From Desulfobacula sp. (lineage in GTDB: Bacteria > Desulfobacterota > Desulfobacteria > Desulfobacterales > Desulfobacteraceae), in the NCBI RefSeq assembly GCF_030611305.1, contig NZ_JAUWQB010000026.1, positions 1 to 42,073 of the forward strand: a stretch of 42,073 nt of DNA, in the 5' to 3' direction. Positions 35 through 18,809 of the stretch are shown here, one piece after another (the first letter of the stretch is position 1; each line of letters begins with the position of its first letter). Made by a program: the position numbers and the translations under genes. The notes beneath the pieces are model-generated. The model ran no database searches, was not told the origin of the DNA, and saw only the letters and a program-made list of their open reading frames with translations.

Positions 35-2188
35 ATGATCAGGATTACCGACATACTTGATAAAATTTATGAGTATAATCCCGGAGGCGATTCGGATATT
101 ATAGACCGGGCCTATATTTACTCGGCAAGGGTTCATGAAGGCCAGGTCCGGCTTTCCGGGGAACCCTATCTGTCCCATCCTCTTGAGGTGGCCGATATTT
201 TGGCCGATATGCGGCTGGATGTTGAGAGCATTGCTTCAGCCCTCCTGCATGATGTCATTGAAGACACCCCGGCAACCAGAGAAGATATTGAGAAGATGTT
301 CGGACCCGATGTTGCCCATATTGTTTCCGGTGTAACAAAACTTTCAGCCCTTCAAACTTCAACCAAAATAGCCCAGCAGGCAGAAAGTTTACGAAAAATG
401 ATTCTTGCCATGGCAGATGATATCCGGGTGGTTTTGATCAAGCTTGCGGACAGAATTCATAATATGAGAACCCTTAAATATCACCAGAGTCCTGAAAAGC
501 AGGCGGCTATTGCCCAGGAAACCCTTGATATTTATGCCCCGATAGCCGCACGCCTGGGGATTTTTTGGATAAAGTATGAACTGGAGGAAAAGGCTTTTTA
601 TTATACTTTAAGGGACGAATATGAACATATTGATACCTTGGTGAACAAAGCCAAGGACGAAAAAGAAGATTACATTAAAGAGGTCAATGAGAAACTTCAT
701 GAAAAAATGAGAGAAATGGGATTGGAAGCTGAAATAAAAGGGAGATACAAGCAGCATTACAGCATTTACCAGAAAATGATTTCCCAAAACCTTGAATTTG
801 ATAAAGTTTATGACATTATAGCCTTTAGAATCATTCTTGATTCGGTTCCTCAGTGTTATGCTGCCCTGGGTGCCATCCATTCCATGTGGAAGCCGATTTA
901 CTATAAAATTAAAGATTATATCGGTAATCCCAAGCCCAATATGTATCAATCCATCCATACCACGGTTGTGGGTCCAAAAGGCGAACGGGTTGAAATTCAG
1001 ATCAGGACCAATGATATGGACCAGATTGCAGAATCCGGGATCGCAGCCCACTGGAGTTATAAAGAAGGCTCAAAGGTTGATAAGAGTGCCGGAGAGCTGT
1101 TTTCCTGGATCAGAAAGCTTGTGGAAAACCAGGAAAATTATAATGATCCGGACGAATTCCTGGAAAATGTCCGTATTGATTTATACCCTGGCGAAATATA
1201 TGTATTCACACCTCTGGGCGACATTAAGACCCTGCCTAAAAAAGCCACGCCTGTAGATTTTGCTTATCTGATACATACGGAAGTCGGTGCAGCGTGTACA
1301 GGAGCAAAGGTCAATGGAAAACTTATGCCGCTCACCCATGAGCTGAAAACCGGCGATGCCATTGAAATTATTACAACCAAAGGCCATAATCCAAGCCCTG
1401 ACTGGCTCAATTCTGTAAAAACCGTAAAAGCCAGGACTAAAATACGCTCCTGGATCAATGCCCGGGAAAAAGAGAGAAGTTATTCTCTGGGGCGTGAGAT
1501 GTGTGAAAAGACATTCAGAAAGAGAAACCAGAATTTTAATGCCCTGGTTAAATCAGGGGAAATCAAAAAGGTTGCCGATACCTATGGGTTTAAAAAGATT
1601 GATGATCTGATCGCCAATGTGGGATTTGGAAAACTTACTCCTTTGCAGATTTTGAATAAAGCCCTGCCGAATCTTGAAAAACAGGAAATTAAAGAAGGAA
1701 ATATTCTTCAGAAACTGGTTGGAAAGCGAAAGAAAAAAGAGAGCACAGGCATCATTGTAAAAGGGCTTAATGATATTCTTGTTAAGTTTTCAAAATGCTG
1801 CAATCCTCTTCCGGGCGACCGTATTATCGGTTACATCACACAGGGCCAGGGGGTAACCATTCACCGGAAAGGGTGCTTAAATATTATGAAATTGAGCAAT
1901 GAGCGCCAGATCGAAGTCCAGTGGAGTGATGATTTTACAGAATCCTATCCTGCCAGTATCAAGGTCAGAACGAATGACAGGTTCGGGCTTCTGGCAGATA
2001 TTGCCTCTGTTATCAGTAAATATAAATCTAATATTTTAAGTGCAAAAACCGAAACCCAGGAAACAGGTGTTGGTCTGTTCTATTTTACCATACTGGTTGA
2101 AAGTTCTGATCAGCTTCGAAAAATTATGTCAGAAATCAGAAAAGTGAAAAAAGTGACCGATGTCAAACGGATCATCCGAAACGATTAA
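35..2188 (+). CDS. rel: Bifunctional (p)ppGpp synthetase/hydrolase, Rel/SpoT family
   Basis: Makes and degrades the stringent-response alarmone (p)ppGpp in the cytoplasm. The 717 residues show the full long-RSH order. The N-terminal HD hydrolase domain has H48, H72-D73 and the LADRIHNMRTL segment at 138-148. The synthetase domain has the GRYKQHYSIYQKM segment and catalytic E320 in EIQIRT. A TGS domain begins near 388, a CC-containing zinc-finger/RIS segment lies near 585-610, and a C-terminal ACT domain starts at about 645. Both hydrolase and synthetase residues are intact, so it should be bifunctional and not a RelA-type monofunctional enzyme. The start MIRITDILDK is the usual one for the family, although no strong Shine-Dalgarno is visible in the 34 bases before it. 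Its last 198 bases recur as a diverged partial copy at 18322-18519. Confidence 0.96.
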   Translation: MIRITDILDKIYEYNPGGDSDIIDRAYIYSARVHEGQVRLSGEPYLSHPLEVADILADMRLDVESIASALLHDVIEDTPATREDIEKMFGPDVAHIVSGVTKLSALQTSTKIAQQAESLRKMILAMADDIRVVLIKLADRIHNMRTLKYHQSPEKQAAIAQETLDIYAPIAARLGIFWIKYELEEKAFYYTLRDEYEHIDTLVNKAKDEKEDYIKEVNEKLHEKMREMGLEAEIKGRYKQHYSIYQKMISQNLEFDKVYDIIAFRIILDSVPQCYAALGAIHSMWKPIYYKIKDYIGNPKPNMYQSIHTTVVGPKGERVEIQIRTNDMDQIAESGIAAHWSYKEGSKVDKSAGELFSWIRKLVENQENYNDPDEFLENVRIDLYPGEIYVFTPLGDIKTLPKKATPVDFAYLIHTEVGAACTGAKVNGKLMPLTHELKTGDAIEIITTKGHNPSPDWLNSVKTVKARTKIRSWINAREKERSYSLGREMCEKTFRKRNQNFNALVKSGEIKKVADTYGFKKIDDLIANVGFGKLTPLQILNKALPNLEKQEIKEGNILQKLVGKRKKKESTGIIVKGLNDILVKFSKCCNPLPGDRIIGYITQGQGVTIHRKGCLNIMKLSNERQIEVQWSDDFTESYPASIKVRTNDRFGLLADIASVISKYKSNILSAKTETQETGVGLFYFTILVESSDQLRKIMSEIRKVKKVTDVKRIIRND

Positions 2189-2207
2189 ATCACAGTACAA
2201 AAATAAA

Positions 2208-2242
2208 GGTTCGGGCTGTCTTATATTTAAACTGCCCGAACC
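2208..2242. terminator. Intergenic hairpin between rel and rpmB (left copy)
   Basis: Stem GGTTCGGGC (2208-2216) with GCCCGAACC (2234-2242), loop of 17. Read on the minus strand it is followed by a T-rich stretch (tttattttt), so it best fits the end of the rpmB transcript; on the plus strand it would end rel with a weaker tail. It is repeated identically at 18539-18573. Confidence 0.65.
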
Positions 2243-2283
2243 AGAATGTTTGTATTATTGAAATAATGTAACAGAGAAGCGGT

Positions 2284-2386
2284 TTAGGACGCTTTGGTTA
2301 CTTTTCCTGCTTTAATACAATTTGTGCAGACATCTATTTTTCTAACGCAATCTTGTTTAATAACGGCCCGAACTCTTTGAAGGTTA
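2284..2386 (-). pseudogene. Truncated rpmB: last 33 codons of ribosomal protein L28
   Basis: Reading down from 2386 the frame gives the C-terminal 33 residues of L28 ([20 protein letters not shown] and on to GKVTKAS) and a TAA stop. It matches the end of the intact rpmB at 18615-18809 with a few substitutions and no internal stop. The N-terminal half, including the CxxC pair, is missing because homology ends at 2386. There is no start codon or ribosome binding site, so it should not be expressed. The substitutions are few and in frame, as if this sequence came from a functional gene in a related genome and was truncated recently. Confidence 0.9.
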
Positions 2387-2575
2387 TACTTTACATGTGA
2401 TAATGATTGTCAATCTTTCATAGGTTCTTCCTCTCTTCTTCTTTTGGAGCTTTCCCGGGGAAGAACCTTTATTACATTTTTCTCACGCCGGAACGGTAAA
2501 ACCTTTTAGGGTCGCTCAGGACCACCAGGGTTTTCACATTAGACTAAAAATATGAACTGCAATAGTGACCAAATA
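2387..2575. other. Left junction region of the inserted block, no gene
   Basis: Unique sequence between the end of the left repeat and the stop of the acyl-CoA ligase gene. It holds an inverted repeat GGTTCTTCC (2423-2431) / GGAAGAACC (2459-2467) with a 27-base loop, which may be the operon terminator or an element end. No T-run follows it on the minus strand, which weakens the terminator reading. I see no open frame and no inverted copy of it at the right junction. Confidence 0.5.
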
Positions 2576-4858
2576 TTATTCTGGATTGATAATCATTAAG
2601 GCATCTCCCACCATTATGCCATTTCCTTCCTCTAGGATAAACAACGGATTAATGTCCAGTTCGACGAGATGACGTCCTAAAAGCGAGCCTAAATTTGATA
2701 TGGTAACGATGGCATTAACTGCTGCGTCAATGTCACGTACAGCCATTCCGCGAAAGCCGGAGAAAAGTTTTCTTGTCTTGAGTTCGCATAGCATTTCTAA
2801 CGCTTCTGCTTTATTGACAGGTGCTAATCTCAAACTAGTATCTTTCAATAGTTCAACAAAAATGCCTCCGGCTCCAAAAAGAATAACAGGACCAAATTTA
2901 TCACTGAATCTGAGCCCAACGATGGATTCTATAGCATTTGGCACCATTTCCTCAATAAATATACCGTTGAGTAACGCTTTAGGTGCTGCATTATGTGCGT
3001 TTTCCAGAATTTCGTCGAACGCTTTTCTCAACGCGTCAGGTCCATTTATCCCTATTTTCAATGCACCGATATCGCTTTTATGCAGGATGTCCAGTGAGTT
3101 TATTTTTGCCACTACCGGATAACGAATATGCTCTGCCAATTTAATAGCTTCTCCGGCTGTATTTGCAAGTCCCCCCTTCGGAATTGCAAGGCCCAGTTCA
3201 TGCAACATTTTTTTACTTGCGTATTCAGAAAGCGGATATGCGCCGCTATTATAGTTTGACGGCATTTCGGATATCAACATTGATTTTACCTTTTCGATTT
3301 TCGAAACTCCAATAGCAAGATTATTATAAGAAGAACTCATCTGTACCGGTGTAGTAAAAGCCGTCGGGCCATCATCTTTCATATGAGCTTTATATTCGCA
3401 ATTATGTCTATTCATATTTACAAGCTGCGATAATGCTTTTATAGTCCGAACCCCGTCAAACAAAAGGGGAATCCCATATTTTCTAAGCCCTTCAATCGCT
3501 TCAGACGGAGCTGCCATCCAGGAAACAAGTATTGGCTTTCCACTGGTCTTGCGCGCTTCCTTGACTATTTCAATAATATCTAGTGAAAGCGAAATTGCAT
3601 TCTCTTTATTGCCTCCAAGGAAAAGAACAATTGAATCTGTATCTGGATCGTCAAGAATAATTTTCATGCTTTTCTTTAAAAGGCCCGGAGATGAAATCAG
3701 TTCTGCAGTCAAATCAATGGGATTTTTGTATGACCCGAATTGAGGTATTACATCTTTCAGCTTATTCTGGGTTTCGGTTTTCAGTTCAGGCACTTCCAGG
3801 CCCAGCTCTTCACATCGATCAGCACAAATAATCCCCCCGCCACCGGAAATACTCATAATTGCAACTCGATTACCCTTAGGATTCAAACCCTTGCTTAGCA
3901 CAACTCCAAGGTCAAGCAATTCTTCGATGTGGTTAGCTTCAATTATACCAGCCTTTCTGAAACATGCTGAGTATTCTTCGTCCGAGCCTGCCAGTGCACC
4001 TGTATGTGAAAGCGCTGCTCTTTTACCAGATTGAGAACGTCCAACCTTAAGGCAAATCAGCGGTTTGCCAATTTCTCTGGCTATAATACCAGCTCGAATC
4101 AATTCATCTGGGTTCCTCGATTCCTCTAAATATACGAGTACTCCCTTAACCTCTTTTTTCATGAGTAAATACCGGGCTACCGTAAAAGTATCCAGAGAGA
4201 CTTCATTACCGGTTGTAACCCAATGAGAAAAACCAATTTTTGCTTCCTGAGCTACCCCGAGAATATATGCGGCAATGGCTCCGCTTTGGCTGACCAATGC
4301 GAGATCACCTTTTTGAAGATTTTTTTCTTCCAAGACACTGGAAAATGAAAGCGGAATTGAATCGATCAAGTTTATAAGGCCTAAGCAGTTAGGCCCTAAA
4401 ACAGGCAATCCATTTTTTTGAGACAAATGCTTGATTTTTTCCTGAACATCTTGGCCCTCTTTTCCCAACTCGGCAAATCCAGAACTAAAAATAATCGCTG
4501 ATTTTGCTTTAGCAACCACACAATCTTGAAAAACCGACTCCATGCGGGAAGCCGGTACGATTAATAAAGCGACATCAACCGTTTCCGGGATCTCTTTAAT
4601 ATTGGGGTAGCATCGGATACCATTGATTTCATTATACTTAGGGTTTATAGGATAAATTTGTCCTTTATAATTATTATCAAGTAAAAATTTCAGCGGCCTG
4701 CCGCTTAAGCGAGAAAGATCTCCTGAACACCCGACAATAGCAACCGAGCATGGATTAAAAAGGGGTTCAATGGATATATCTATTGATGGTTCCCGGTCTT
4801 TTATAAAATTTTGGCCATTATCACCTGTAAAATAATGATTTCTTTTATTCTTATTCAA
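2576..4858 (-). CDS. Acyl-CoA synthetase, ADP-forming (acetate--CoA ligase family)
   Basis: Interconverts an acid, CoA and ATP with acyl-CoA, ADP and phosphate in the cytoplasm. This is the fused single-chain form (760 aa): CoA-binding Rossmann domain at about 30-130 (SVAIVGCSGD), two succinyl-CoA-ligase-like domains with the phospho-histidine H285 in ALSHTGALAGSD, then an ATP-grasp domain from about 535 (MLHELGLAIPKG, YPVVAKINS). The start codon is TTG: the upstream in-frame codon is a stop, and GAGAGG lies 8 bases before TTG. It is the last gene of the catabolic operon, 31 bases after the acyl-CoA dehydrogenase. It could activate the imported acid or recover ATP from the final acyl-CoA; the sequence does not decide. 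The acyl substrate is unknown. Confidence 0.9.
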   Translation of the reverse strand: MNKNKRNHYFTGDNGQNFIKDREPSIDISIEPLFNPCSVAIVGCSGDLSRLSGRPLKFLLDNNYKGQIYPINPKYNEINGIRCYPNIKEIPETVDVALLIVPASRMESVFQDCVVAKAKSAIIFSSGFAELGKEGQDVQEKIKHLSQKNGLPVLGPNCLGLINLIDSIPLSFSSVLEEKNLQKGDLALVSQSGAIAAYILGVAQEAKIGFSHWVTTGNEVSLDTFTVARYLLMKKEVKGVLVYLEESRNPDELIRAGIIAREIGKPLICLKVGRSQSGKRAALSHTGALAGSDEEYSACFRKAGIIEANHIEELLDLGVVLSKGLNPKGNRVAIMSISGGGGIICADRCEELGLEVPELKTETQNKLKDVIPQFGSYKNPIDLTAELISSPGLLKKSMKIILDDPDTDSIVLFLGGNKENAISLSLDIIEIVKEARKTSGKPILVSWMAAPSEAIEGLRKYGIPLLFDGVRTIKALSQLVNMNRHNCEYKAHMKDDGPTAFTTPVQMSSSYNNLAIGVSKIEKVKSMLISEMPSNYNSGAYPLSEYASKKMLHELGLAIPKGGLANTAGEAIKLAEHIRYPVVAKINSLDILHKSDIGALKIGINGPDALRKAFDEILENAHNAAPKALLNGIFIEEMVPNAIESIVGLRFSDKFGPVILFGAGGIFVELLKDTSLRLAPVNKAEALEMLCELKTRKLFSGFRGMAVRDIDAAVNAIVTISNLGSLLGRHLVELDINPLFILEEGNGIMVGDALMIINPE

Positions 4859-4889
4859 AGCATTTACCTCTCACACACAGTCTAAAAAT

Positions 4890-6053
4890 TTAACGGTTAG
4901 CCTTACGGTAGCCAAGCTGATCCATAGCGATAATCATCTTACAAATATTCGCAGAGCCTTCAACGATAATATAGGTTGGAATATCACGATAGTACCGGGC
5001 AATAGGAAATTCCGTGGAATATCCATAAGCGCCGAGAATCCGCATCGCATAGTTTGCACATTTCATTGCTGTTTCTCCGGCAAAATATTTAGCCTGAGCT
5101 GTTTCAAGTCCGTTTTTTGTATTGCCCTGATCTTTTTGCCATGCTGCCTTATAGACCAGTAATCTGGCAGCTTCGATCTCAGTGGACATTTGAGCAATGA
5201 GATCCTGATTCATTTGAAACTGCCCAATCTGTTTACCAAACTGCTTGCGGGAGTTGCAATATTTAATAGATTCGTCCAGACAAACTTGGGCGCACCCCAC
5301 AGCGCCAGCGGCGGCAGATATTCGCGTATTGTTTAAGGAACTGAAAACAATTTTAGCACCATCACCGGGTTCCCCCAGGATATTTTCCTTAGGGACCTTT
5401 GTATTGTTTAAAAATATTTCACCTGTTGGTGAGGAGTGGGAGCCAAGTTTTTCCAATTCACTGGTGGTTATACCATTGAAATTTTTCATTTCTACTATGA
5501 ATGCCGACAGCCCCTTGTTTCCCTTGGATTTGTCGGTGTAGGCGTACATTACAATAACATCGGCCACATGCGCATTTGAAATCCAGGTCTTGGAACCGTT
5601 TAGCAACCAATGGTCACCACAGTCTTCAGCTGTAGTTGTTATAGACATAACGTCAGAGCCAGTATCAGGTTCAGTGATGGCAAATCCACCCATATATTCG
5701 GCACTGCACAGTTTTGGTACATATTTCTTTTTTACCTCCTCAGTGCCATACATACAGATTGGGTGGGCGCACCCTAGCCCCAGCAGGTTGTATTGTACGC
5801 GAAGAGAACTGGAGGCCCTGGCGATTTCCTCAGTAATTATAACTGACGCCATAAAGCCCATGTCTTCACCACCGTATTCTTCGGGTATTGTGGCGCCGAA
5901 AAACCCGAGTTCACCCATAGGTTTTATCACTTCTTTTATGGGTAAATAGTTAGACGAATCCCACTCATTAGCAAAAGGGGCTATCTTTTTTTGCGCAAAT
6001 TCCCGGACGGCTTTTTCAAGCATTTTTTGTTCTTTTGTTAATTCAAATTCCAT
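4890..6053 (-). CDS. Acyl-CoA dehydrogenase
   Basis: FAD enzyme that introduces the alpha-beta double bond in an acyl-CoA, passing electrons to ETF. The 387 residues have the usual three parts: N-terminal helices, the beta-domain signature FAITEPDTGSD near 148 with WISNA near 176, and the C-terminal helical domain. The catalytic base is probably E365 in VEGSANICKMIIA, in the place of the YEGT glutamate of short-chain enzymes. SANICKM in place of the common SEIQRL is closer to the short-chain, branched-chain or glutaryl type than to long-chain enzymes. AGGAGAA precedes the ATG. It sits between uspA and the ADP-forming ligase and supplies the first oxidation step of the beta-oxidation set in this operon. 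No etfAB lies in the window. Confidence 0.93.
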   Translation of the reverse strand: MEFELTKEQKMLEKAVREFAQKKIAPFANEWDSSNYLPIKEVIKPMGELGFFGATIPEEYGGEDMGFMASVIITEEIARASSSLRVQYNLLGLGCAHPICMYGTEEVKKKYVPKLCSAEYMGGFAITEPDTGSDVMSITTTAEDCGDHWLLNGSKTWISNAHVADVIVMYAYTDKSKGNKGLSAFIVEMKNFNGITTSELEKLGSHSSPTGEIFLNNTKVPKENILGEPGDGAKIVFSSLNNTRISAAAGAVGCAQVCLDESIKYCNSRKQFGKQIGQFQMNQDLIAQMSTEIEAARLLVYKAAWQKDQGNTKNGLETAQAKYFAGETAMKCANYAMRILGAYGYSTEFPIARYYRDIPTYIIVEGSANICKMIIAMDQLGYRKANR

Positions 6054-6113: not shown

Positions 6114-6656
6114 TCATGGGTCTGGTACATATTCTTTGCCTGAAATAGGTATAACTAAGATTGGTATTTCAGACTTGCGTAGTACGTATCGAATCGTGTC
6201 ACTAATAAATAATTTCTCAAGGCCTGTTTGGGCGTGAGATCCCATAACGATCAGATCACAGCCATGAGTATCCGCTTCCTTTAATATAACTTCTGTAATA
6301 TTTTTGCCTTCTGCGATTATTTCTATTACCTGTAGTTTATTAAGCTTGGATTCTGGCTCTAATGATTCTTCTTTACAGGAAATACCTAATTGCGGTTGAT
6401 CAACAACCTGTTGTTTCTTGCCGATAAGTACATCCCTTGCTTTTTGATTATGTTTGGATCTTATGGTTTTTAACTTTTTTTCATTTAGTGCGCTGATTAA
6501 TAACCTTTCGGAAGCAGAACTCAACTTACGCATTACATGTAGAAGATAAATTCGGGCTTCGTATTTTTCGGCCAGGCTCAATGAAAAATCAAAAGCAATT
6601 TGTGAATTTTTGGAAAGGTCGGTTGCAAAAAGAATTTTTTTGATTTCAGGAGTCAT
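6114..6656 (-). CDS. Universal stress protein, UspA family
   Basis: Single-domain Usp of 180 aa with the alpha/beta fold signature IKKILFATDLSKNSQIAFDFS at the start and CDLIVMGSHAQTG near 132-145. The usual ATP-loop pattern G-x2-G-x9-G-(S/T) is only partly kept: GSHAQTG is followed after nine residues by DTIRYVL, so the second glycine and serine are lost and ATP binding is doubtful. A central insertion (about 70-105) makes it longer than the common 140-150 aa. It lies inside the catabolic operon between thiolase and acyl-CoA dehydrogenase and is probably co-transcribed. Its role there is not clear. Confidence 0.85.
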   Translation of the reverse strand: MTPEIKKILFATDLSKNSQIAFDFSLSLAEKYEARIYLLHVMRKLSSASERLLISALNEKKLKTIRSKHNQKARDVLIGKKQQVVDQPQLGISCKEESLEPESKLNKLQVIEIIAEGKNITEVILKEADTHGCDLIVMGSHAQTGLEKLFISDTIRYVLRKSEIPILVIPISGKEYVPDP

Positions 6657-6703
6657 GTTTTCAATTTCCTTAATGATAATTTACGACTTAGATCAAAGCC
6701 GAA

Positions 6704-7969
6704 TTACGTCATCCTGCTGATGATTGCAGCAATGCCATGACCGCCGCCGCCGCATATTGTTTCTAATCCATAAACTCCGTTACGCCTGTATAGTTCATGT
6801 ATCAGACTCACCATTCTCATTGTGCCGGTGGCGGCAATAGGATGCCCCAGGGAAATCCCAGACCCGTTCACATTTACTTTATCTTCCAAAACCTTTCCAT
6901 TGATACCCATCAACTTGGCATCCGCAAGAACCTGGACTGCAAAAGCTTCTTGGATCTCTATGAGATCCATTTGATCAATGGTAAGGTTAGCTATTTTTAA
7001 AGCCTTTGTAACCGAAGACGGAACTGCTGGGTAGGTAAGCGTTGGATCTGCTGCTGCTACTGAAAATGACTCCAGACGGGCAACTGGTTTAATCCCAAGC
7101 TGTCTGGCCTTAGTTTTAGAAATTAAAACAACCGCAGCAGCTCCATCATTTTCTGTTGCCGAATTTCCCGCCGTGCACACTCCGCCATCATATACCGTTT
7201 TTAGTTTTCTGAGTTTTTCTATCGATGTTTCTGCCCGTGGCGGTTCGTCCGTATCAAGAATTATGGTTTCTTTTCTCGAAGGAATCGATACTGGAACGAT
7301 CTCCTCTTTGAACTTTCCCGATTTAATGGCCGCACAGGCTTTTTGATGGCTTCGCAGCGACCAATTATCGGCCGCTTCCCGGGTAATACCTTCCTCTCTT
7401 GCAGCAGCCTCTGCCCAAGACATCATCGAGTTCAACTCACCGAATCTTTCAATAGGCTGTGACATGACGCGGGCTCGTTGTATGCGGTCATAAATAGGCA
7501 TGCCCCAAGTGGACACCGCACCATGACCTCTGGGCATAAATCCCAATTTTTGATCAAATCTTCCACCAGTACCCCATTTTATAAATTCGCCCGGGATATA
7601 GAACTCAGTCTGGCTCATGCTTTCAATACCTCCAGCCACAATCACGTCAGCATAGCCGCATTGAATTTTCATTGCTCCGAAACAAATTGAATCCAGGCCG
7701 GAACAGCACCTTCTATCTATTGTGATACCGGGGATATCCATAGGCCACCCGGCGGCAAGCAGCGCCACGCGTGCTATATTTACGGATTCGCCATTTTGGT
7801 AAGATTGCCCCATAATCACCTCGTCGACATCCTCTGGGCTAACGCCGGCCTTCTTTACTACTTCATCAATAACCAGCGCTCCAAGTTTATATGCCGGGAT
7901 GTCTTTAAATCCACCTAGATAGCTGCCGATCGGTGTACGTACAGAACCGCAAATCATTACTTTTTCCAT
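6704..7969 (-). CDS. Thiolase (acetyl-CoA C-acyltransferase family)
   Basis: Cleaves a 3-oxoacyl-CoA with CoA, or runs in reverse. The 421 residues carry the complete degradative-thiolase set: nucleophile C88 in RRCCSGLDSI, H376 in GHPIAATGT and C406 in CGGGGHGIAAI. The N-terminus VRTPIGSYLGGFKD is typical. It is somewhat longer than the common 390-395 aa, with extra residues around 125-160 (a W/F/G-rich stretch IKWGTGGRFDQKLGF), which may reshape the substrate pocket. GGAGGT precedes ATG. It belongs to the catabolic operon and would provide the last step of beta-oxidation. The specific substrate cannot be read from the sequence. Confidence 0.93.
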   Translation of the reverse strand: MEKVMICGSVRTPIGSYLGGFKDIPAYKLGALVIDEVVKKAGVSPEDVDEVIMGQSYQNGESVNIARVALLAAGWPMDIPGITIDRRCCSGLDSICFGAMKIQCGYADVIVAGGIESMSQTEFYIPGEFIKWGTGGRFDQKLGFMPRGHGAVSTWGMPIYDRIQRARVMSQPIERFGELNSMMSWAEAAAREEGITREAADNWSLRSHQKACAAIKSGKFKEEIVPVSIPSRKETIILDTDEPPRAETSIEKLRKLKTVYDGGVCTAGNSATENDGAAAVVLISKTKARQLGIKPVARLESFSVAAADPTLTYPAVPSSVTKALKIANLTIDQMDLIEIQEAFAVQVLADAKLMGINGKVLEDKVNVNGSGISLGHPIAATGTMRMVSLIHELYRRNGVYGLETICGGGGHGIAAIISRMT

Positions 7970-10330: not shown

Positions 10331-11193
10331 TTTACTTGTTTCTCCTTGTAATCATAGATCCCCTTTCCCACTTTCCGACCCAGTCTTCCCGCCTTTACGT
10401 ATTTAACCATTAACGGCGCCGGTCGATATTTATCACCAAGGGTTTTATGAAGGTATTGAAGTATATTCAAGCGAGTGTCCAATCCAACGAGATCTACCAT
10501 TTCAAATGGCCCCATTGGATGGTTTAAACCAAGTTTTACAGCCATATCGATATCTTCTGGCGAGCCTAAGCCCTCTTGGAGCATATTAAAAGCCTCATTG
10601 CCGATCAACGCATTAATTCGTGTTGTTACAAACCCGGGGAACTCGTTAATTTTTACTGTTATTTTCCCCATCTTGCGGCACATTTCCTCGCAATTTTTAA
10701 AAGTTTTTTCTGATGTTTCCAAACCACACACGATTTCAACAAGTTTCATCATGTGAACCGGGTTGAAGAAATGCAAGCCGATTGTTCTTTCCGGTTTGCC
10801 AACAACCGACGCGATTTCGGTTATGCTCATAGATGAAGTATTACTTGCGAATATTGTATGCGCCAGGCATAATTTATCGAGTTCTGAAAAGACCTTTTGC
10901 TTCAATTCAAGATCTTCGGGAATCGCTTCTATGACAAGATCAACTTCGGCCGTTGCCTTTGCCAAATCCGTGGAATATTTTATTCGCTGTAGTGCAGCCG
11001 TTCTCTCCGCAGCTTCCAGTTTTCCTAATGTAACACCCTTTTGGAGATTGGAAGCAATGGTATCAATAGATTTTTCAAGCAAGGCACTTTCTATATCATA
11101 CATTGTCACATCAAAGCCACCGGCTGCACAAACATGAGTGATACCCCTACCCATGACGCCCGCTCCTAAAACTGCAACCTTTTTTCCCATCAT
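10327..11193 (-). CDS. 3-hydroxyacyl-CoA (3-hydroxybutyryl-CoA) dehydrogenase
   Basis: NAD-dependent oxidation of 3-hydroxyacyl-CoA to 3-oxoacyl-CoA. The 288 residues match the short monofunctional type: NAD-binding GAGVMGRGITHVCA at 10-23, the catalytic histidine H141 in GLHFFNPVHMMKLVEIV, SNTSS at 117-121, and the C-terminal dimer domain with NHPMGPFEMVDLVGLD. Two ATG codons lie in tandem (11193 and 11190); GGAGACAAAATT upstream suits the first. It overlaps the hydratase gene by four bases and follows the 3-hydroxyisobutyrate-dehydrogenase-like gene by 15. Confidence 0.94.
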   Translation of the reverse strand: MMGKKVAVLGAGVMGRGITHVCAAGGFDVTMYDIESALLEKSIDTIASNLQKGVTLGKLEAAERTAALQRIKYSTDLAKATAEVDLVIEAIPEDLELKQKVFSELDKLCLAHTIFASNTSSMSITEIASVVGKPERTIGLHFFNPVHMMKLVEIVCGLETSEKTFKNCEEMCRKMGKITVKINEFPGFVTTRINALIGNEAFNMLQEGLGSPEDIDMAVKLGLNHPMGPFEMVDLVGLDTRLNILQYLHKTLGDKYRPAPLMVKYVKAGRLGRKVGKGIYDYKEKQVK

Positions 11194-11208: not shown

Positions 11209-12021
11209 TTATTTGTATCTTACGAGTTGTTTAGCAAGCGACGACAGAAACATCGGAATTTCATGAATTTCCGCCACAGAGAGTGTCATGTCAATATCTT
11301 TATAGAGCAAATCAAGTGTTCCTCCTTTCTGATAATCTTCCTTCCATGATCGAACAATCTGCCAATTGTTGACAACCCATGAATCACCTGTACTTACTTT
11401 GAGCAGATCAAACAACGTATCCGATTTGAGGCCGACCTTGTTTGCCAGATTTTTAGCTTCGTGCACTGCACACATGTTCACCAGCAGAAGCATATTATTG
11501 ATCAGCTTTGCATATTGGCCCATACCTGAATCGCCAAGATAAAAAGTATGGCTTCCGAGCACATCAAATATCTTTTTGTATTTCTGAAATCCACTTTCAG
11601 ACCCACCGACCATAATAGTTAAGTCTCCTGTCCCAGCCCTTTCCTTGCCACCGCTAATTGGAGCATCCAAAAATATTAGGCCTTTCTTCTCAGACTGCTC
11701 GGCCAGATCGCAAGCGATCAAAGGATCAATTGTTGATACAACGATAATGGTTTCAAGTTGACCGGTGTTGGCAAGAACTCCTTTCTCGCCTTTAATAATC
11801 TGTTCAACCTGTGAAGTGGTTCTGACTGCAATGATTACCATTTCGGAACAGGCTGCGACATCCATAGGTGACTTTGCGACTTGGGCACCGATTTTTTCAA
11901 TTTGTCTTAATGATTTTTTGTCAATATCATAAACATTGAGTTTGTATCCGGCATTTATTAAGTTTTTTGCCATTGGATAACCCATCTCTCCCAGTCCAAT
12001 AAATCCTATCGCTTTTTCCAT
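11209..12021 (-). CDS. 3-hydroxyisobutyrate dehydrogenase / tartronate-semialdehyde reductase family
   Basis: Beta-hydroxyacid dehydrogenase family: reversible NAD(P) oxidation of a 3-hydroxy acid. The 270 residues contain the Rossmann motif GFIGLGEMGYPMAKNL at 6-21, the substrate-binding signature DAPISGGKERAGTGDLTIMVGG at 119-140 and the catalytic lysine K172 in GQYAKLINNMLLL. It is slightly shorter than the usual 290-300 aa, with a short C-terminus ending SLAKQLVRYK. It lies between the MmgE/PrpD gene and the 3-hydroxyacyl-CoA dehydrogenase. It suggests that a free hydroxy acid or semialdehyde is part of the pathway; the exact substrate is not readable. Confidence 0.88.
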   Translation of the reverse strand: MEKAIGFIGLGEMGYPMAKNLINAGYKLNVYDIDKKSLRQIEKIGAQVAKSPMDVAACSEMVIIAVRTTSQVEQIIKGEKGVLANTGQLETIIVVSTIDPLIACDLAEQSEKKGLIFLDAPISGGKERAGTGDLTIMVGGSESGFQKYKKIFDVLGSHTFYLGDSGMGQYAKLINNMLLLVNMCAVHEAKNLANKVGLKSDTLFDLLKVSTGDSWVVNNWQIVRSWKEDYQKGGTLDLLYKDIDMTLSVAEIHEIPMFLSSLAKQLVRYK

Positions 12022-12050: not shown

Positions 12051-13385
12051 TTATTGAATATAAATCAGTTTTTCGAGCAAGGCGTTCAGATTATCATGGT
12101 TTTCAAGTCCAATAATCATCTGCCATGTTTCTGCCATATCATCAGGAGGTAGAACATCAGATGTATATTTTTCATACAATAAATGAACTTCATCAATGGT
12201 CAAGGGGGAATCAGGGCCTCCTTTAGCCTGAACTCTTTCCTTAGTAATCTTTCTGCCGTCGGTAAGTAATACTTCGATTTTTGCTATGCCACTCATGAAC
12301 TCTGCTGGCCATTCAGAATGATTAATTACTATCACCTTTTTCCAGGCCTTCTGGAATTCGTAAGATTGCAATACTTCCTGTGAAAAGTGACAACTGTTCA
12401 CATCACCATCTATCATTAAAGCTGCCATTATATGATGAAAACTAAAACGTGCATCTTCTGTATGGATAGGCTCAGGACGATTGCATGTGTTGTCAACCGG
12501 CCCCACATGAATCTTTATGATATCAATGGCATCCACTGTTAATTCCTGCTCTACCAGTATTTCCAGCATCATATCAATATGTCGGTGGGTTAAAAAGCAG
12601 CAAGGGTATTTCTTTATCCACGTCTCATGAACGCGCCATCTTGCTCCTGCCAAATCTTTTACAATTGACTTAGCATCGTAGTTATGGCCGGTACACATTT
12701 GAGATAACCACTTCTCAACATCCCAGCTCCCGGTCATGCCCATCTTTGCTAACTGGGCTGCCATCAATCCATTGCGGCAGGCAACAGCAGATTCAATATA
12801 GTGAGCATCCGTACCGAAATTAATGATGAATCCACTGGCACAGCCCATTGCTATGCCCATAGCATTCTTAAGCTGTTCCCGATCAAGCCCAAGGGCTTTG
12901 CCAGCAGTCACGGACGCACCAATAACGCCATAAAATGGAAGATCCGTGTAACCTTTAGATGATAAAGTAAACATTCCAATCCGGTTCATGACCTCAATAC
13001 CAAGAGCCGCGGCCGTGATAACTTCTTTACCGGTTAAGTTTAATTTTTCTGCCAGAGGAAAAATCACAGGAAAAATAGTAATATCGCTGGTGGCCGAAGG
13101 GAATTGATCATCTTCCAGCTCAGCAGCGTGAGAAGTAATTCCGTTAATAAAGATCGCGTCTTCTATTAGAAATTTCTTTCCAGAGCCTATAGCACCAATT
13201 TCTCCAGGGGCATTTTTTGATTCGGTATACTTGATAATTCTTTTTCCGGCAACGGTTGTAGAGCCCGTTAACATGGCCGCGACTATTTTTGAGGTCAGTG
13301 CTTTTGTATAAAGAACAGTTTCATCTGGTATATCCTGAAAATCAGTTTCAAAAACAAATGCTGCAAGTTGATCCATTATAGACAT
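12051..13385 (-). CDS. MmgE/PrpD family protein
   Basis: Family that includes 2-methylcitrate dehydratase and cis-aconitate decarboxylase (all-helical domain plus a lid domain). The 444 residues show the family landmarks: the GSGKKFLIEDAIFINGITSHAAELEDDQ region near 65-95, a GYTDLPFYGVIGASVTAGKALGLD segment near 145-168 and KYPCCFLTHRHID near 258-270. The shape of the active site, and so the substrate, cannot be assigned from sequence alone; many members act on branched or tricarboxylic acids. AGGAGAGAG precedes ATG. It is the first enzyme gene after the TRAP permease, so it may act on the imported acid or its first derivative. Confidence 0.85.
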   Translation of the reverse strand: MSIMDQLAAFVFETDFQDIPDETVLYTKALTSKIVAAMLTGSTTVAGKRIIKYTESKNAPGEIGAIGSGKKFLIEDAIFINGITSHAAELEDDQFPSATSDITIFPVIFPLAEKLNLTGKEVITAAALGIEVMNRIGMFTLSSKGYTDLPFYGVIGASVTAGKALGLDREQLKNAMGIAMGCASGFIINFGTDAHYIESAVACRNGLMAAQLAKMGMTGSWDVEKWLSQMCTGHNYDAKSIVKDLAGARWRVHETWIKKYPCCFLTHRHIDMMLEILVEQELTVDAIDIIKIHVGPVDNTCNRPEPIHTEDARFSFHHIMAALMIDGDVNSCHFSQEVLQSYEFQKAWKKVIVINHSEWPAEFMSGIAKIEVLLTDGRKITKERVQAKGGPDSPLTIDEVHLLYEKYTSDVLPPDDMAETWQMIIGLENHDNLNALLEKLIYIQ

Positions 13386-13458: not shown

Positions 13459-14790
13459 CTAATCGATAAGTACCGAGGGCAACCACGTGATGAGTCCTGG
13501 AAAAATTATACAAATAAGTAATCCCAGTTCCATTAATCTCCAAAATGGAAAAGCCCCCCAATAAATGTCCTTGGTTTTAACCTCAGGGGGCGCCACTCCT
13601 TTTAGATAAAACAGAGCATAGCCAAATGGTGGTGTCAAAAAAGAGTCTTGAAGCATTACCGCCATAATGATAACAAACCAAAGTTTATCAAACCCGAGCT
13701 GGTCAGCAATCGGCAGAAAAATTGGAAAAACGATCATAACTATGCCGATCCAATCTATAAACATACCAAGTACAAACAGGATTAACATCATGATTGCGAA
13801 CGTTCCCCATTTCCCGAATCCAACTCCCAAAATTAGATCACGAACAACATCGCCTCCACCCAGCCCTAAAAAAACGCCAGTAAAACAGGTCGCCCCAACC
13901 AGAATCATCATTACCATAGATGTGGTTTTTGCCGTCTGTGTGATTGCTTCAAAAAATTCTTTGGCATCAAATCTTTTATAGGCCAACACCAAAACAAACG
14001 CTAAAAAAGCTCCAACAGCAGATGCTTCTGTGGGGGTTGCTATTCCGAAAAAAATAGTTCCAAGCACACCTATAACGAGGACCATTGGAGGGACCATTGA
14101 TTTAAGAACCATTTTCGCAATTGTTTTATTGGAAACCTCGGAACGTACCTCTTTCGATAATGCTGGCCCCATAGTCGGGTTTAAGTTGCATTTGATTAGG
14201 ATATAACCAATGTAGAGAAATGATAACATCAGGCCTGGTCCAATTGATCCGGCAAAGAGTTTGCCAACAGATAGATTTGCCTGATTGCCCATAATAATGA
14301 GCATAATACTCGGGGGAATTAAAATTCCCAGCGCTCCACCGGCACAGATGCAGCCGCAACTCAGCCTTTTATCATATTCATATTTTAGCATTACTGGCAA
14401 TGCTAAAAGGCCCATTGTAACAACAGAGGCACCGATTATACCGGTACAAGCGCCAAACAGTGTAGAAACCACGATGACAGCTATGGCGATACCACCTTTA
14501 ATTGGCCCGAACAAATATCTCATGGCATCAAAAAGGGTTTCAGCGATTCCAGAACTGTCCAACACCCTGGCCATAAAAATAAAAAGTGGGATCGCCAATA
14601 AAATGTAATCGTTCATTAGATTATAGATGCGCCCTGCAAACATATAAAAACAATCCGGCCCCCACCCGATAAACCCAAAAATTACGGCCAATCCACCTAA
14701 TACAAATGCCAAGCTGTGTCCCATAAGTAACCCAACTAAAAGGCTAATAGACATGAGGATTGTTATCCATTCCGGGCTTACTTCAAACAT
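13459..14790 (-). CDS. TRAP transporter large permease, DctM subunit
   Basis: The ion-coupled transport subunit of a tripartite ATP-independent periplasmic transporter in the inner membrane. The 443 residues are strongly hydrophobic with about 12 membrane segments and typical DctM stretches: LMNDYILLAIPLFIFMARVL, GAASV-like GIIGASVVTMG, SCGCICAGGALGILIPPSIMLIIMG and GIATPTEASAVGAFLA. The start overlaps the end of dctQ by eight bases, so the two membrane subunits are coupled. It works with the binding protein at 15425-16540. Confidence 0.95.
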   Translation of the reverse strand: MFEVSPEWITILMSISLLVGLLMGHSLAFVLGGLAVIFGFIGWGPDCFYMFAGRIYNLMNDYILLAIPLFIFMARVLDSSGIAETLFDAMRYLFGPIKGGIAIAVIVVSTLFGACTGIIGASVVTMGLLALPVMLKYEYDKRLSCGCICAGGALGILIPPSIMLIIMGNQANLSVGKLFAGSIGPGLMLSFLYIGYILIKCNLNPTMGPALSKEVRSEVSNKTIAKMVLKSMVPPMVLVIGVLGTIFFGIATPTEASAVGAFLAFVLVLAYKRFDAKEFFEAITQTAKTTSMVMMILVGATCFTGVFLGLGGGDVVRDLILGVGFGKWGTFAIMMLILFVLGMFIDWIGIVMIVFPIFLPIADQLGFDKLWFVIIMAVMLQDSFLTPPFGYALFYLKGVAPPEVKTKDIYWGAFPFWRLMELGLLICIIFPGLITWLPSVLID

Positions 14791-15289
14791 TTTTTTTCTC
14801 TTTTTTATATTTTTGTATTTCTTTATAAAAAATTACCACCCCCTGCAACAACAGTAAAAAAGCAGATATGGGAATTACTGTTTTAATAGGATACAAAGGA
14901 GGAGCAAAAACGCTCCAGCTTGTTTCTTTTATTGCCCATGATTTGGTGGCATAAACCGTTCCCTGGTACAATAACACAAGACAAAAAGGGAAAAAAAACA
15001 GAACATACGAAAGTATTTGAAGAAAAGCCTGTTTCTTTTGGGTTAACGTCTCAGAAACAACATCCACTCCGACATGAGCGCCATGCAGTAGACTATAGCC
15101 AGCAAGTGTCATAAAATAGAAACCGAATAGTTGCGTTGTTACCTCAAAACTCCAAATTGTCGGTTTGCGAAACACATATCGCATGATTACCTCGATAACC
15201 ACCAGCAAAGTGAGTACTACTATGGAGCAACTGACAATCCTTCCAATCCATTCATTAAGATTGTCTATGATATGGATGATTTTTTTCAC
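14783..15289 (-). CDS. TRAP transporter small permease, DctQ subunit
   Basis: Small membrane subunit that pairs with DctM. The 168 residues form four hydrophobic helices, with the conserved family motif RYVFRKPTIWSFEVTTQLFGFY near 38-60 and GYSLLHGAHVGVDVVSE at about 64-80. The start is GTG, with GGAGATTATATA directly before it. It lies 135 bases downstream of the binding-protein gene, with a strong hairpin between them (15364-15396). Confidence 0.93.
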   Translation of the reverse strand: MKKIIHIIDNLNEWIGRIVSCSIVVLTLLVVIEVIMRYVFRKPTIWSFEVTTQLFGFYFMTLAGYSLLHGAHVGVDVVSETLTQKKQAFLQILSYVLFFFPFCLVLLYQGTVYATKSWAIKETSWSVFAPPLYPIKTVIPISAFLLLLQGVVIFYKEIQKYKKEKKNV

Positions 15290-15363
15290 TATATAATCTC
15301 CAAACCTAAAGAGGTCTTTAATAATTTTAATGTTGCGTTTTATGATTGCAAATCAATCTTGTT

Positions 15364-15396: not shown

Positions 15397-15424
15397 ATCT
15401 GAATATAATATCCTGTGTATAATA

Positions 15425-16540
15425 TTATTCTGAATACTTCTTTATTGCTTCAAGATCAGGAAGCACAGGGTTACGTCCAGCTGTAAAAGGACTCGCTATT
15501 GAACGCCACTTAGCTTCTATTTTCATAAAATTGAGTTGGGAATAGGCTATTTTAGCAAACATAGGATTTTCCTTACTGGATTCAAGAAGATGCTTCCAGG
15601 ATAACTCCTGAATTTTATCTAAATCTTCATCACTGAGCCGAGTAACCTGGATTCCCTTGTCAAGAAATTTTTGAGTCGCAATAGCTGAAGAATATTCATA
15701 ATAGGTATATGTCCAACCGAAAGTAGCCGCTGCAATTGTCTTCAGCAGTTCTTGTGTTTTGGCAGGCAGACTATCCCAAGCTTTTTTGTTTATCATGACA
15801 CCTCCGACTGAAGCTGGTTGATGCCAACCGGGGGTTGCCCAATATTTGGTTACTTCCTGAAAGCCCAACCCCCAATCATTTGCCGGGTCTGAAAATTCAC
15901 CTGCATCTATAACACCCTTTTCAAGTGCTTGATAAATTTCTCCACCTGAGAGCATTACTTGTGAAGCGCCAAGATCTTTTAATATTTTTCCTTGGGTTTG
16001 ACCGGACATCCTGATTTTTAAACCTTTATAATCAGCAAGCGTTCTTATCGGTTTGTTTCCTCTAACCCCTGATTCCGCAGTAGAAACCCAATAGGGCAGA
16101 TAAACAATTCCGAATTGACTATAGAGCTCCTGGTATAATTCGAACCCGCCTCCCTGGTAGATCCAAACCATGTAATCGGAAGGTGTTAGACCCATTGGGA
16201 ACGCTCCGAGCAGATCGAAGGCCGAGTTTTTACCAGCCCAATAGTTTGGCCAATCACCTCCGGCCTGGACTGTGCCTTGTGAGACAGCATCAAGGAGCTC
16301 AAAGGCAGGTACTAAAGCACCCCCTTCAAAAAATTTAATCTGTAGATTATCATCAGCCAGGGTATTAACGAGGTTAACAAAATGCTTGTCGGCCTCAATA
16401 AATTGAATTGACGGAGGCCAGCAAGTTGTCATTTTCCAGTTGATAACTTTTCCAGTTGCATTAGTTGTAAACATTGCTATAAGAACAAACAGAATTGCAA
16501 ATACCTGCAGAAAGTGGCTGTTAAACATTTGCTTTTTCAT
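15425..16540 (-). CDS. TRAP transporter periplasmic binding protein, DctP family (TakP-like)
   Basis: Periplasmic solute receptor for the DctQM permease. The 371 residues begin with a signal peptide (MKKQMFN, hydrophobic 11-26, cleavage probably after TNATG). The body follows the TakP-type pattern for 2-oxo or other monocarboxylates: FEGGALVPAFELLDAVSQG, KGLKIRMSGQTQG with the carboxylate-binding arginine, SGGEIYQALEKGVIDAGEFSDPAND and YWATPGWHQPASVGGVMINKKAWDSLP. I therefore infer a monocarboxylic acid more than a C4-dicarboxylate, but binding cannot be fixed by reading. GGGAGAA precedes ATG. It is the first gene of the long catabolic operon. Confidence 0.93.
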   Translation of the reverse strand: MKKQMFNSHFLQVFAILFVLIAMFTTNATGKVINWKMTTCWPPSIQFIEADKHFVNLVNTLADDNLQIKFFEGGALVPAFELLDAVSQGTVQAGGDWPNYWAGKNSAFDLLGAFPMGLTPSDYMVWIYQGGGFELYQELYSQFGIVYLPYWVSTAESGVRGNKPIRTLADYKGLKIRMSGQTQGKILKDLGASQVMLSGGEIYQALEKGVIDAGEFSDPANDWGLGFQEVTKYWATPGWHQPASVGGVMINKKAWDSLPAKTQELLKTIAAATFGWTYTYYEYSSAIATQKFLDKGIQVTRLSDEDLDKIQELSWKHLLESSKENPMFAKIAYSQLNFMKIEAKWRSIASPFTAGRNPVLPDLEAIKKYSE

Positions 16541-16883: not shown

Positions 16884-17558
16884 CTACAATCTAAGTACCC
16901 ATCTTGAGGGTTTCTCTATCTCCTTGGTCAAGCCGCACGCAGCTTCTTTTAGATGCAACAGCATTAGTTTTTTTGCCTTTTCCCCATTCTTCAGTTTTAG
17001 TGCTTCTATAATTTTTTTGTGTGAATCTACATAGTTGTCTATTTGAATCGGAAGTGACAGCCCCTCAGATACCCGTCTGTATATCTTCCTTCGTAGGTCA
17101 CTATCGATTTCCATAAGGGTTTTATTACCCTGTTTTTTTAGAAAATAGTTATGGAATTCCGAGTTTTTTTGCATATATTCCGCATATTTCTTCCCATTGG
17201 CCAATCTTTCCATTTCATTATTAAGTCCATCCAAGAAAGATAAGTCCTTTTTGGAAATGATATCAACACTAACCTGCTCAACGGCATTTGCTTCCAGTAT
17301 GCCTAAAATTTCATAAATTTCTTGTACCCTTTGAGCCGAAATTTTTCTGACGATAGTCCCCGTATCTTTAGTGTGTGATGTATAACCCTCTTTTTCTAGT
17401 TGTAGCAAAGCTTCGCGAACAGGGGTACGGCTGACATTAAATTTTTTAGCCAATGTAATTTCTAATAATTTTTCCCCAGCATTTATCCTGCCATGAATAA
17501 TATCATCAACGATTTGATTAAATACTATTTCCCTTAGTGCTTTTTTCGAAGTGTCCAT
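16884..17558 (-). CDS. GntR-family regulator with FCD ligand domain
   Basis: Transcription regulator, probably a ligand-released repressor of the catabolic operon. With the start at 17558 (MDTSKKALRE) it has 224 aa: winged helix at 5-70 including LAKKFNVSRTPVREALLQLEKEG, then an FCD all-helical ligand domain (about 78-215) typical of FadR-type GntR proteins that sense organic acids. The open frame extends upstream to a TTG at 17633, but that TTG is the -35 hexamer of a good promoter, and the operator-like palindrome at 17583-17602 would then be coding, so 17558 is preferred. The gene is transcribed toward the operon it should control, separated by the 343-base gap. Confidence 0.92.
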   Translation of the reverse strand: MDTSKKALREIVFNQIVDDIIHGRINAGEKLLEITLAKKFNVSRTPVREALLQLEKEGYTSHTKDTGTIVRKISAQRVQEIYEILGILEANAVEQVSVDIISKKDLSFLDGLNNEMERLANGKKYAEYMQKNSEFHNYFLKKQGNKTLMEIDSDLRRKIYRRVSEGLSLPIQIDNYVDSHKKIIEALKLKNGEKAKKLMLLHLKEAACGLTKEIEKPSRWVLRL

Positions 17559-17582
17559 ATTCACAACCGTTAGTTTATATAA

Positions 17583-17602
17583 TATACAATATTGTATACA
17601 AT
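17583..17602. promoter_or_regulatory. Palindromic GntR operator overlapping the gntR transcription start
   Basis: Two overlapping perfect palindromes: TATACAATATTGTATA (17583-17598) and ATTGTATACAAT (17591-17602). The half-site TATACAAT repeats with a 12-base step, the same step as at 16654-16677. The predicted transcription start near 17597 falls inside it, which suits negative autoregulation. Confidence 0.7.
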
Positions 17603-17603
17603 C

Positions 17604-17633
17604 AGCATAAACACATAACTCTTGGCTTGTCAA
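17604..17633 (-). promoter_or_regulatory. Predicted sigma70-type promoter of gntR
   Basis: Minus-strand TTGACA (17633-17628), an 18-base spacer and TATGCT (17609-17604). It leaves a leader of about 39 bases before the ATG at 17558. Confidence 0.5.
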
Positions 17634-17708
17634 CTAAAATTTATTTTTTGTGTTTATTTTTTGTTGAGAGCAAATAACTTGTCTGGATTTGTAGGGACAA
17701 AACTATGG

Positions 17709-17780
17709 CGCTCACATAAATTGAGACAGCTTCGCTCACATAAATTGAGACAGCTTCGCTCTGATAAATTGAGGCGTTCG
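17709..17780. repeat. Three tandem 24-bp repeats
   Basis: Two identical units starting CGCTCACATAAATTGAG (17709-17732 and 17733-17756) and a third, degenerate unit (17757-17780). They may be transposase-binding repeats from the end of a lost element, since mobile-element debris follows. No transposase gene is visible. Confidence 0.7.
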
Positions 17781-17866
17781 TTCACAGCACAATCCATTAA
17801 GAAACCATTTTTTCCCCAAGTAGTATTTTTAAAAAATTTGGCAGGGTAGCCGAACAATGGAGGAGT

Positions 17867-18073
17867 TTAAAGAAAAGATGCTTGAAGTACGTCATTCCAA
17901 TCATGTTTTGATGGACGAAGTCTTTTGATTGAAGGGTATCGGTTGATCATTTTATTTGTCATAGTATCGCCGGTTTTATCAGCATCAAAACCACAGTAAA
18001 TTTTGCAACCGTTTATGATAAAATTTTGCAACCATGCTGGATTATCTGTTATGAGGTATTGCGTAACCAGCAA
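17867..18073 (-). pseudogene. Fragment of a Toprim-domain mobile-element protein (DUF3991/primase-like)
   Basis: The 68-codon frame reads NFIINGCKIYCGFDADKTGD, then the RLRPSKHDWNDVL segment. FDADKTGD is the DxD motif of a Toprim fold, and the terminal HDWNDVL is typical of Toprim/DUF3991 proteins of plasmids and integrative elements. Such proteins are normally several hundred residues; here only the C-terminal part is left, and no good start or ribosome binding site is present. It marks the right side of the inserted block as mobile-element derived. The family name rests on motif reading only. Confidence 0.6.
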
Positions 18074-18321
18074 CAGTTTTTTGTCATCTTTTTGAGGGAG
18101 TTTTAATCTTTGTTTTATAGGAGTCTCTTGCAGAAAAAAAATAATTTATATTTTTAGAATTAACAAGGGTTAATAATTGATGAAAAGCTGCAAGAGAAGC
18201 AGCTTTATGAGAAAATTATCACAGATTTGGTTTGAAGAACAAGAGGTTTTTTTCCCTTTTATTGAAAAACAGGTTGAAGAACGAACCGCTTACAAGGAAA
18301 TTAAAACACCTGGTAACCACT
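18074..18321. other. Degraded sequence at the right junction
   Basis: Broken coding-like sequence on the plus strand. One frame gives DEKLQEKQLYEKIITDLV and a stop at about 18237; a shifted frame continues EEQEVFFPFIEKQVEERTAY and on into the repeat. It looks like the decayed end of an unidentified gene. The open frame from 18232 that runs into the rel fragment is an accidental fusion and not a gene. Confidence 0.45.
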
Positions 18322-18519
18322 TTAGCAGATATTGCCTCGGTGATCAGCAAAAATAAATCAAATATCTTAAACGCAAAGACTGAAACCCAGGAAACAGGAT
18401 TGGCGCTGTTGTATTTTACCGTCCTGGTTGAAAGTTCTGATCAGCTTCGAAAAATTATGTCTGATATCAGAATAGTTAAAAAAGTAATTGATGTCAAACG
18501 GATCATCCGCGCCGAATAA
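18322..18519 (+). pseudogene. Truncated rel: last 65 codons (ACT domain end)
   Basis: From 18322 the frame matches the C-terminal ACT segment of the Rel at 35-2188 (LADIASVIS, AKTETQETG, LVESSDQLRKIMS, DVKRIIR), with about 13 amino-acid differences and no stop before the natural end. All catalytic domains are missing and homology begins abruptly at 18322. The changes are mostly conservative, which suggests a functional relative as source more than long decay in place. Confidence 0.92.
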
Positions 18520-18538
18520 ATCACAGTACAAAAATAAA

Positions 18539-18573
18539 GGTTCGGGCTGTCTTATATTTAAACTGCCCGAACC
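18539..18573. terminator. rpmB terminator (right copy of the intergenic hairpin)
   Basis: Same stem GGTTCGGGC / GCCCGAACC as at 2208-2242, followed on the minus strand by a T-rich tail. It lies 41 bases after the rpmB stop. Confidence 0.7.
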
Positions 18574-18614
18574 AGAATATTTGTATCATTGAAATAATGT
18601 AACAGAGAAGCGGT

Positions 18615-18809
18615 TTAGGACGCTTTAATTACTTTTCCTGCTTTAATACAACTCGTGCATACATCTATTTTTCTAACACAACCTTGTTTAATAACTGCAC
18701 GAACTCTTTGAAGGTTAGGATTAAATTTTCTCTTATTCAGGTTGTGGGCATGACTGACATTATTGCCAACCATTGGCTTTTTTCCGCAAATTGCACATTC
18801 TTTCGACAT
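18615..18809 (-). CDS. rpmB: 50S ribosomal protein L28
   Basis: Large-subunit ribosomal protein, 64 aa, a normal bacterial L28 length. The start [23 protein letters not shown] and the core [13 protein letters not shown] are diagnostic. The zinc-ribbon cysteines C5, C8, C48 and C51 (CAIC, CTSC) are present, so this is the zinc-binding form. AGGAG lies 6-10 bases before the ATG. It is the only complete rpmB; the truncated copy at 2284-2386 shares its last 33 codons. Confidence 0.97.

Follow-up and report, generated by a model that had tools for sequence, protein, structure and literature searches.

How did a 14-gene catabolic operon come to be flanked by two incomplete copies of the junction between two housekeeping genes? 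The question is raised by contig NZ_JAUWQB010000026.1 of Desulfobacula sp., analysed here as one window of 42,073 bases (the entire contig, from a draft genome of 3.57 Mb in 159 contigs), in which a block of some 16 kb containing the operon separates the convergent genes rel and rpmB. When bacteria gain many genes at once, integrases and transposases are often held responsible. Here, the ancestry of the block's ends suggests that it came from a congener and entered the housekeeping junction by ordinary homologous recombination. We consider it probable, though well short of certain, that congener DNA integrated at rel–rpmB in the Campbell manner, i.e. by single-crossover, insertion-duplication integration, a textbook mechanism.

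The block is flanked by direct repeats. Positions 1991–2386 and 18322–18717 align without gaps over 396 bp with 42 mismatches (in a BLAST-type search, the match begins 3 bases later, at 90% identity), and these are the only two matches genome-wide, a third copy being absent. From left to right, the window holds whole rel, an intergenic hairpin, a truncated rpmB (rpmB′, ~103 bases), the block, a truncated rel (rel′, the last 198 bases), the intergenic hairpin again, whole rpmB, bamD, and the genes of thioredoxin reductase and thioredoxin. The complete, native rel (RelA/SpoT family; 35–2188, plus strand; 717 amino acids; TIGR00691 above cutoff) starts 34 bases from the contig start, and its first 1956 bases are 91–93% identical to those of the congeners G025, G010, and G024. 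Based on alignment, site comparison, trees, and the hairpin, the left repeat consists of the native rel tail, the intergenic hairpin, and a probably foreign rpmB′ (about 2284–2386). The first three of these lines of evidence assign to the right repeat a foreign rel′ (18322–18519), the second intergenic copy (18520–18614), and the end of the complete native rpmB (18615–18809, minus strand; 64 amino acids; Ribosomal_L28), whose protein is 97–98% identical to those of the same three congeners. An earlier note on this DNA had counted 42 mismatches by hand in the gapless repeats, which realignment reproduces exactly; the coordinates likewise bear out its statement that rel is whole only on the left and rpmB only on the right, the inner copies being truncated. 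Both convergent genes have their 3′ ends, and the hairpin common to them (z −3.05 on one strand and −4.48 on the other), within the repeat. After insertion, neither rel nor rpmB has therefore lost its own end or its hairpin, and the event is expected to be harmless. The hairpin, which a simple terminator scan did not list, presumably ends transcription.

The same junction is found without the block in most of the genus. Of 25 congeners, each species being represented by one genome, 21 have rel and rpmB convergent with nothing of the block between them, separated by about 1–180 bp in 13 and by about 1421–1739 bp in 8. The two genes are apart in three further congeners (G007, G008, and G013), and the remaining one, G015 (56% complete), gave no match. 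The long gap of G025 contains a gene of 439 codons (L084:5115–6434), which we take to be of PIN/PhoH type, and the visible start of the gap is similar to that of G025 in G010, G006, G016, and G012. This PhoH-like gene is present at the site in some species of the genus and missing in others, including the genome studied here, in which its closest relative has 42% identity. The close sister G024 also lacks it at rel–rpmB.

The two repeats are of mixed ancestry, strongly so for rel and more weakly for rpmB. Their mismatches are unevenly distributed: 31 fall into the 198-bp rel tail, 2 into the intergenic region, and 9 into the rpmB tail, and the copies have an exact run of 62 bp in common (repeat positions 196–257). 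At the 31 differing rel sites, matches to the left and the right copy, respectively, number 28/3 in G025, 26/2 in G010, 27/1 in G024, 20/4 in G009, and 17/11 in G006. At the 9 differing rpmB sites, the preference is reversed, with matches to the right and the left copy numbering 5/2, 8/1, 5/3, 7/0, and 8/1 in the same order. Fisher tests of this flip, made for these five of the 24 sisters compared, give p values of 0.002 (G025), 1e-5 (G010), 8e-4 (G024), 1e-4 (G009), and 0.02 (G006), which serve as a guide only because the sites are linked and not independent.

Trees of the 198-bp rel tail and the 103-bp rpmB tail, with the modest support to be expected of such a length of alignment as the values below indicate, place the left rel tail with G025/G024/G010 (0.617), the right rel tail in a clade with G018, G007, G008, G021, and others (0.866), and the right rpmB tail with G010, G006, G025, and G003 (0.812). 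The right rel tail is about as near to that other clade as the left one is (85.4 versus 84.3% identity to G018; 84.8 versus 84.8% to G011), as would not be expected of a decaying copy of the native gene. Third codon positions hold 21 of the 31 rel differences (p = 9e-5), which argues that rel′ was a functioning gene while it diverged; neither a stop nor a frameshift interrupts its frame. Taken together, the outer copies appear to be native and the inner ones foreign, clearly for rel and less so for rpmB. The earlier note had attributed the arrangement to a Campbell-type single crossover with DNA from a related species, and had proposed sister alignments and tail trees as checks. The empty site, the native outer and foreign inner rel, the derivation of the inner rel piece from, or from close to, a different clade within the genus, and the separation of the rel tails into different clades all agree with that proposal; the rpmB part, with its 9 sites and its unplaced left tail, follows less well.

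The exchange itself can be narrowed down. Ancestry switches in both repeats between repeat positions 195 and 306, where the copies are nearly identical: the intergenic region (2189–2283 in the left copy, and likely the exchange tract) differs from its right counterpart at 2 of 95 positions, as against 31 of 198 in the rel tails. For comparison, 120 pairs were formed from the two copies and from 14 of the 21 sisters with both genes (G024, G009, G018, G016, G012, G002, and G003 were omitted). Among the 60 pairs with a rel identity of 80–88%, the left/right pair has an intergenic identity of 98%, and the next best pair 91%; across all 120, one other pair reaches at least 97% (G023–G011, 98.2%, with rel at 93.9%). 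Since the intergenic copies are nearly identical although the rel tails have diverged, we place the exchange in the intergenic region.

The course of events that we infer is as follows. The donor would have been a DNA molecule, most simply a circle of ~16.3 kb, that carried the catabolic operon and a 0.4-kb rel′–rpmB′ segment from another species of the genus. A single recombination between this molecule and the resident convergent rel–rpmB junction, with the exchange in or beside the intergenic hairpin and conversion making the tract alike in both copies, would yield native rel, foreign rpmB′, the block, foreign rel′, and native rpmB. Such an alike tract could arise from a crossover with conversion or from gap repair of the resident junction from the incoming circle, and gap repair would also delete a resident PhoH-like gene. 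Recombination of the repeats within the 62-bp exact run is predicted to restore the native site, so that excision may be possible.

Both edges of the block, a fact beyond the earlier note, are broken transposase genes fused to rpmB′ and rel′. On the left (2387–2520, minus strand), a truncated insertion sequence (IS) of the IS200/IS605 type, comprising the element start and the first 11–12 codons of tnpA, the fourth of which is a stop, is fused to rpmB′. It is 95% identical to a copy elsewhere in the genome, L062, whose tnpA is complete (2972–3370; Y1_Tnp). Compared with six other copies in the genome, the left-edge copy has 93–95% identity; five of those six, all partial and at contig ends, are 99–100% identical among themselves, and it therefore stands outside this recent native burst. 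A further copy (C92) has only 82% identity. The near-identical copies hold the ends of contigs C84, C159, C158, C41, and C156 of G000 (L063–L067), which points to a recent burst of the element that fragmented the assembly.

On the right (18121–18321, plus strand), the upstream part and 5′ end of a frameshifted DDE transposase gene are fused to rel′; they match L069, in which DUF772/DDE_Tnp_1 is recognized, in two pieces (92% and 87%). At this join, both partners would have TTAG in common provided that the donor rel had TTAG at that place; several rel sequences from the other clade agree with it at the two variable sites concerned. The foreign rel′–rpmB′ piece was thus probably joined to the operon earlier, by non-homologous events at breaks inside two transposase genes. 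A composite transposon was rejected, as the ends hold broken fragments of two different kinds of IS and not two copies of one intact IS.

Next to the right edge lies a fragment of a DUF3991/Toprim protein (17867–18145, minus strand; Toprim_2 just under cutoff), partly inside a 74% DNA match to L079. In G021 (L079:778–2398), istB is directly followed by a full DUF3991/Toprim gene, which an IS21-like element may carry as a passenger. At positions 17700–17790 are short tandem units similar to CTCACATAAATTGAGACAGCTTCG, which, judged by eye, presumably correspond to the end repeats of an IS21-type element.

Several observations weigh against Campbell-type integration. A free circle was not seen, and none of the 14 block genes scanned is a replication or transfer gene. 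Nor was the donor found among the sampled genomes, the best match of rel′ being 85–87% (G018). The rpmB ancestry evidence amounts to 9 sites. At these, G022 (20 left and 6 right matches in rel, and nearly as close there) is tied at 4/4, and G003 (likewise 20 and 6 in rel) is nearly tied with 3 left and 4 right matches; the left rpmB′ is closer than the right copy to 0 of 24 sister sequences and falls into no clade of the rpmB tree, and part of its difference may be decay. The 12 diagnostic intergenic columns are mixed: 5 are native-like and 6 resemble the other clade in the left copy, as against 4 and 7, respectively, in the right copy, and a tree of the region favours neither parent. Finally, the close sisters G025 and G010 have the PhoH-like gene between rel and rpmB, and it is absent here: either it had already been lost, as in G024, or the event exceeded a plain crossover.

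The last point is handled well by the main rival, which we nevertheless judge unlikely. A congener would already have had the block at its own rel–rpmB with duplicated ends, and a linear piece of its DNA would have replaced the resident junction through two crossovers, one per intergenic region, so that one step accounts for both the 98% intergenic identity and the missing PhoH-like gene. The price is that both crossovers must fall within about 110 bp despite kilobases of donor homology, that the original formation of the duplication is left unexplained, and that no such donor was found among the 26 genus genomes searched by DNA or with PrpD in the family.

An assembly artefact, in which the common intergenic stretch caused a free circle, or DNA of a second species in the sample, to be assembled into the native contig, is improbable. 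The draft state of the genome (159 contigs), the 62-bp exact run, and the start of the contig only 34 bases before rel would suit it, but read pairs easily span 62 bp and the copies differ at 42 sites. At the edges, moreover, the rpmB′/IS200 and transposase/rel′ junctions share at most about 4 bases by eye, too few for k-mer joins, and the artefact would itself suggest a circle with rel′–rpmB′.

Duplication within the lineage, by template switching or tandem duplication that made the 396-bp copy upon entry of the block and was followed by decay of the inner copies, is very improbable and for rel already largely refuted: taken by itself, the arrangement is compatible with a backward template switch, the two edges look like illegitimate joins, and rpmB′ may be partly decayed, but rel′ groups with another clade, to which it is about as near as native rel, differs mainly at third codon positions in an uninterrupted frame, and is followed by an intergenic region that barely differs. 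An old tandem duplication was rejected because of where rel′ falls in the tree and how its differences are spread over codon positions.

Campbell-type integration could be extended to a general way of life, albeit one that we find rather doubtful. The block would then be an integrase-free mobile unit whose captured 0.4-kb convergent-gene junction acts as a portable homology site, cycling between circle and chromosome within the genus by host recombination and always leaving both housekeeping genes and their common terminator intact.

The 14 block genes, all on the minus strand, were scanned against Pfam and NCBIfam. Those with profile matches encode an NDP-forming acyl-coenzyme A (CoA) synthetase (2576–4858), a universal stress protein (6114–6656), a thiolase (6704–7969), an enoyl-CoA hydratase (9551–10330), a 3-hydroxyisobutyrate-dehydrogenase-like (HIBADH-like) protein (11209–12021), an MmgE/PrpD family protein (12051–13385), the TRAP transporter large permease DctM (13459–14790), small permease DctQ (14783–15289), and solute-binding protein DctP (15425–16540), and a GntR/FCD regulator (16884–17633). 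The glutaryl-CoA dehydrogenase Acd (4890–6053; NF045552) and a 3-hydroxyacyl-CoA dehydrogenase (10327–11193; NF006722) score above cutoff, and a VOC/methylmalonyl-CoA epimerase-like protein (9105–9503) below the curated cutoff. A ketopantoate-reductase-like (PanE-like) protein (8334–9038) has an incomplete C-terminal domain (the ApbA_C match stops at position 57 of 125); its gene ends inside that domain, is without a match in the collinear operon of G765 described below, and may be a broken insertion. Judging from these assignments, the operon likely serves dicarboxylate uptake, CoA-thioester activation, and beta-oxidation via a glutaryl-CoA-like intermediate. The base composition of the block resembles that of its flanks (40.8 versus 41.7% G+C). 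The right flank is syntenic, bamD (18894–19544, minus strand; TIGR03302 above cutoff) being near rpmB in sisters. No integrase gene is among the 14 scanned, plus-strand and smaller open reading frames being outside the scan; the window contains no tRNA gene, and what is repeated at the ends is a 396-bp stretch from two housekeeping genes. An integrative and conjugative or mobilizable element, or an integrase-type genomic island, was rejected for want of an integrase among the 14 genes and of a tRNA or short attachment site.

By DNA, the whole operon occurs in no other of the 26 genus genomes, in a search that scored at most 11 candidate places per genome; matches outside its own block are partial (at best 69%, in the glutaryl-CoA dehydrogenase gene), short fragments, or IS repeats. 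None of the 85 other genomes of the family has a close PrpD match: at E 1e-40, PrpD is found in 2 of 86, this genome and G007 (29% identity, two in-frame TGA codons). Among 395 genomes of the phylum, 9 have PrpD at E 1e-60, this one included, the best other at 42%. When 389 genomes of the order were searched by DNA, 13 of them, again including this one, matched at E 1e-80, and the search led to G765, a member of another family (L130). There, 12 of the 14 block genes are collinear and in the same orientation (33–83% protein identity), and the operon is flanked on both sides by transposase genes. This collinear operon between transposase genes is a new fact, and it helps the reading of the block as a mobile catabolic cassette. 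In a wider search of genome contigs, Paradesulfitobacterium ferrireducens (L110), which we take to belong to a Gram-positive lineage, has one PrpD locus (53% identity) near thiolase, hydratase, hydroxyacyl-CoA dehydrogenase, and acyl-CoA dehydrogenase genes, so that much of the catabolic set occurs in that lineage as well. A plasmid or viral source was rejected, since plasmids gave no near match to the block and viral contigs no match to the two exact junction patterns. The passages of PMC11887813 consulted contain nothing on the operon among the terms sought.

An insertion of this kind, with neither integrase nor tRNA site, would escape any search that depends on such features. Its signature, partial gene copies of mixed ancestry, could be looked for systematically instead. 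A literature search for natural Campbell-type islands found no paper with the term combinations used, and says no more than that.

Among known processes, homology-facilitated illegitimate recombination (PMC3240628) is similar in that homology aids the entry of unrelated DNA. That process combines homology at one end with an illegitimate join at the other; here, both chromosome joins look homologous, and the illegitimate joins are internal to the DNA that entered. Transformation-induced merodiploidy by repeat pairing, with tandem duplications of about 100–900 kb, likewise involves a donor with a repeated segment and duplications by unequal exchange, its repeats being incomplete IS copies (PMC3784515); unlike there, the DNA between the repeats is foreign here and not duplicated chromosome. 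The G765 operon shares gene order, orientation, and flanking transposase genes with the block. It has no match for the PanE-like and VOC genes, has an extra short-chain dehydrogenase gene beside the synthetase, and is accompanied by different transposases; the 31 kb read there (L130 and L133) gave no match to rel or rpmB. In textbook Campbell-type integration, as here, the insert has target DNA directly repeated on both sides, the outer genes are whole and the inner ones cut, and the switch between native and foreign sequence falls inside the repeat. Unlike the textbook case, the event would be natural and between species, with ~11% repeat divergence, an exchange tract nearly identical in both copies, and a donor circle that we infer. 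The mechanism is already textbook, and the present case of it is well resolved.

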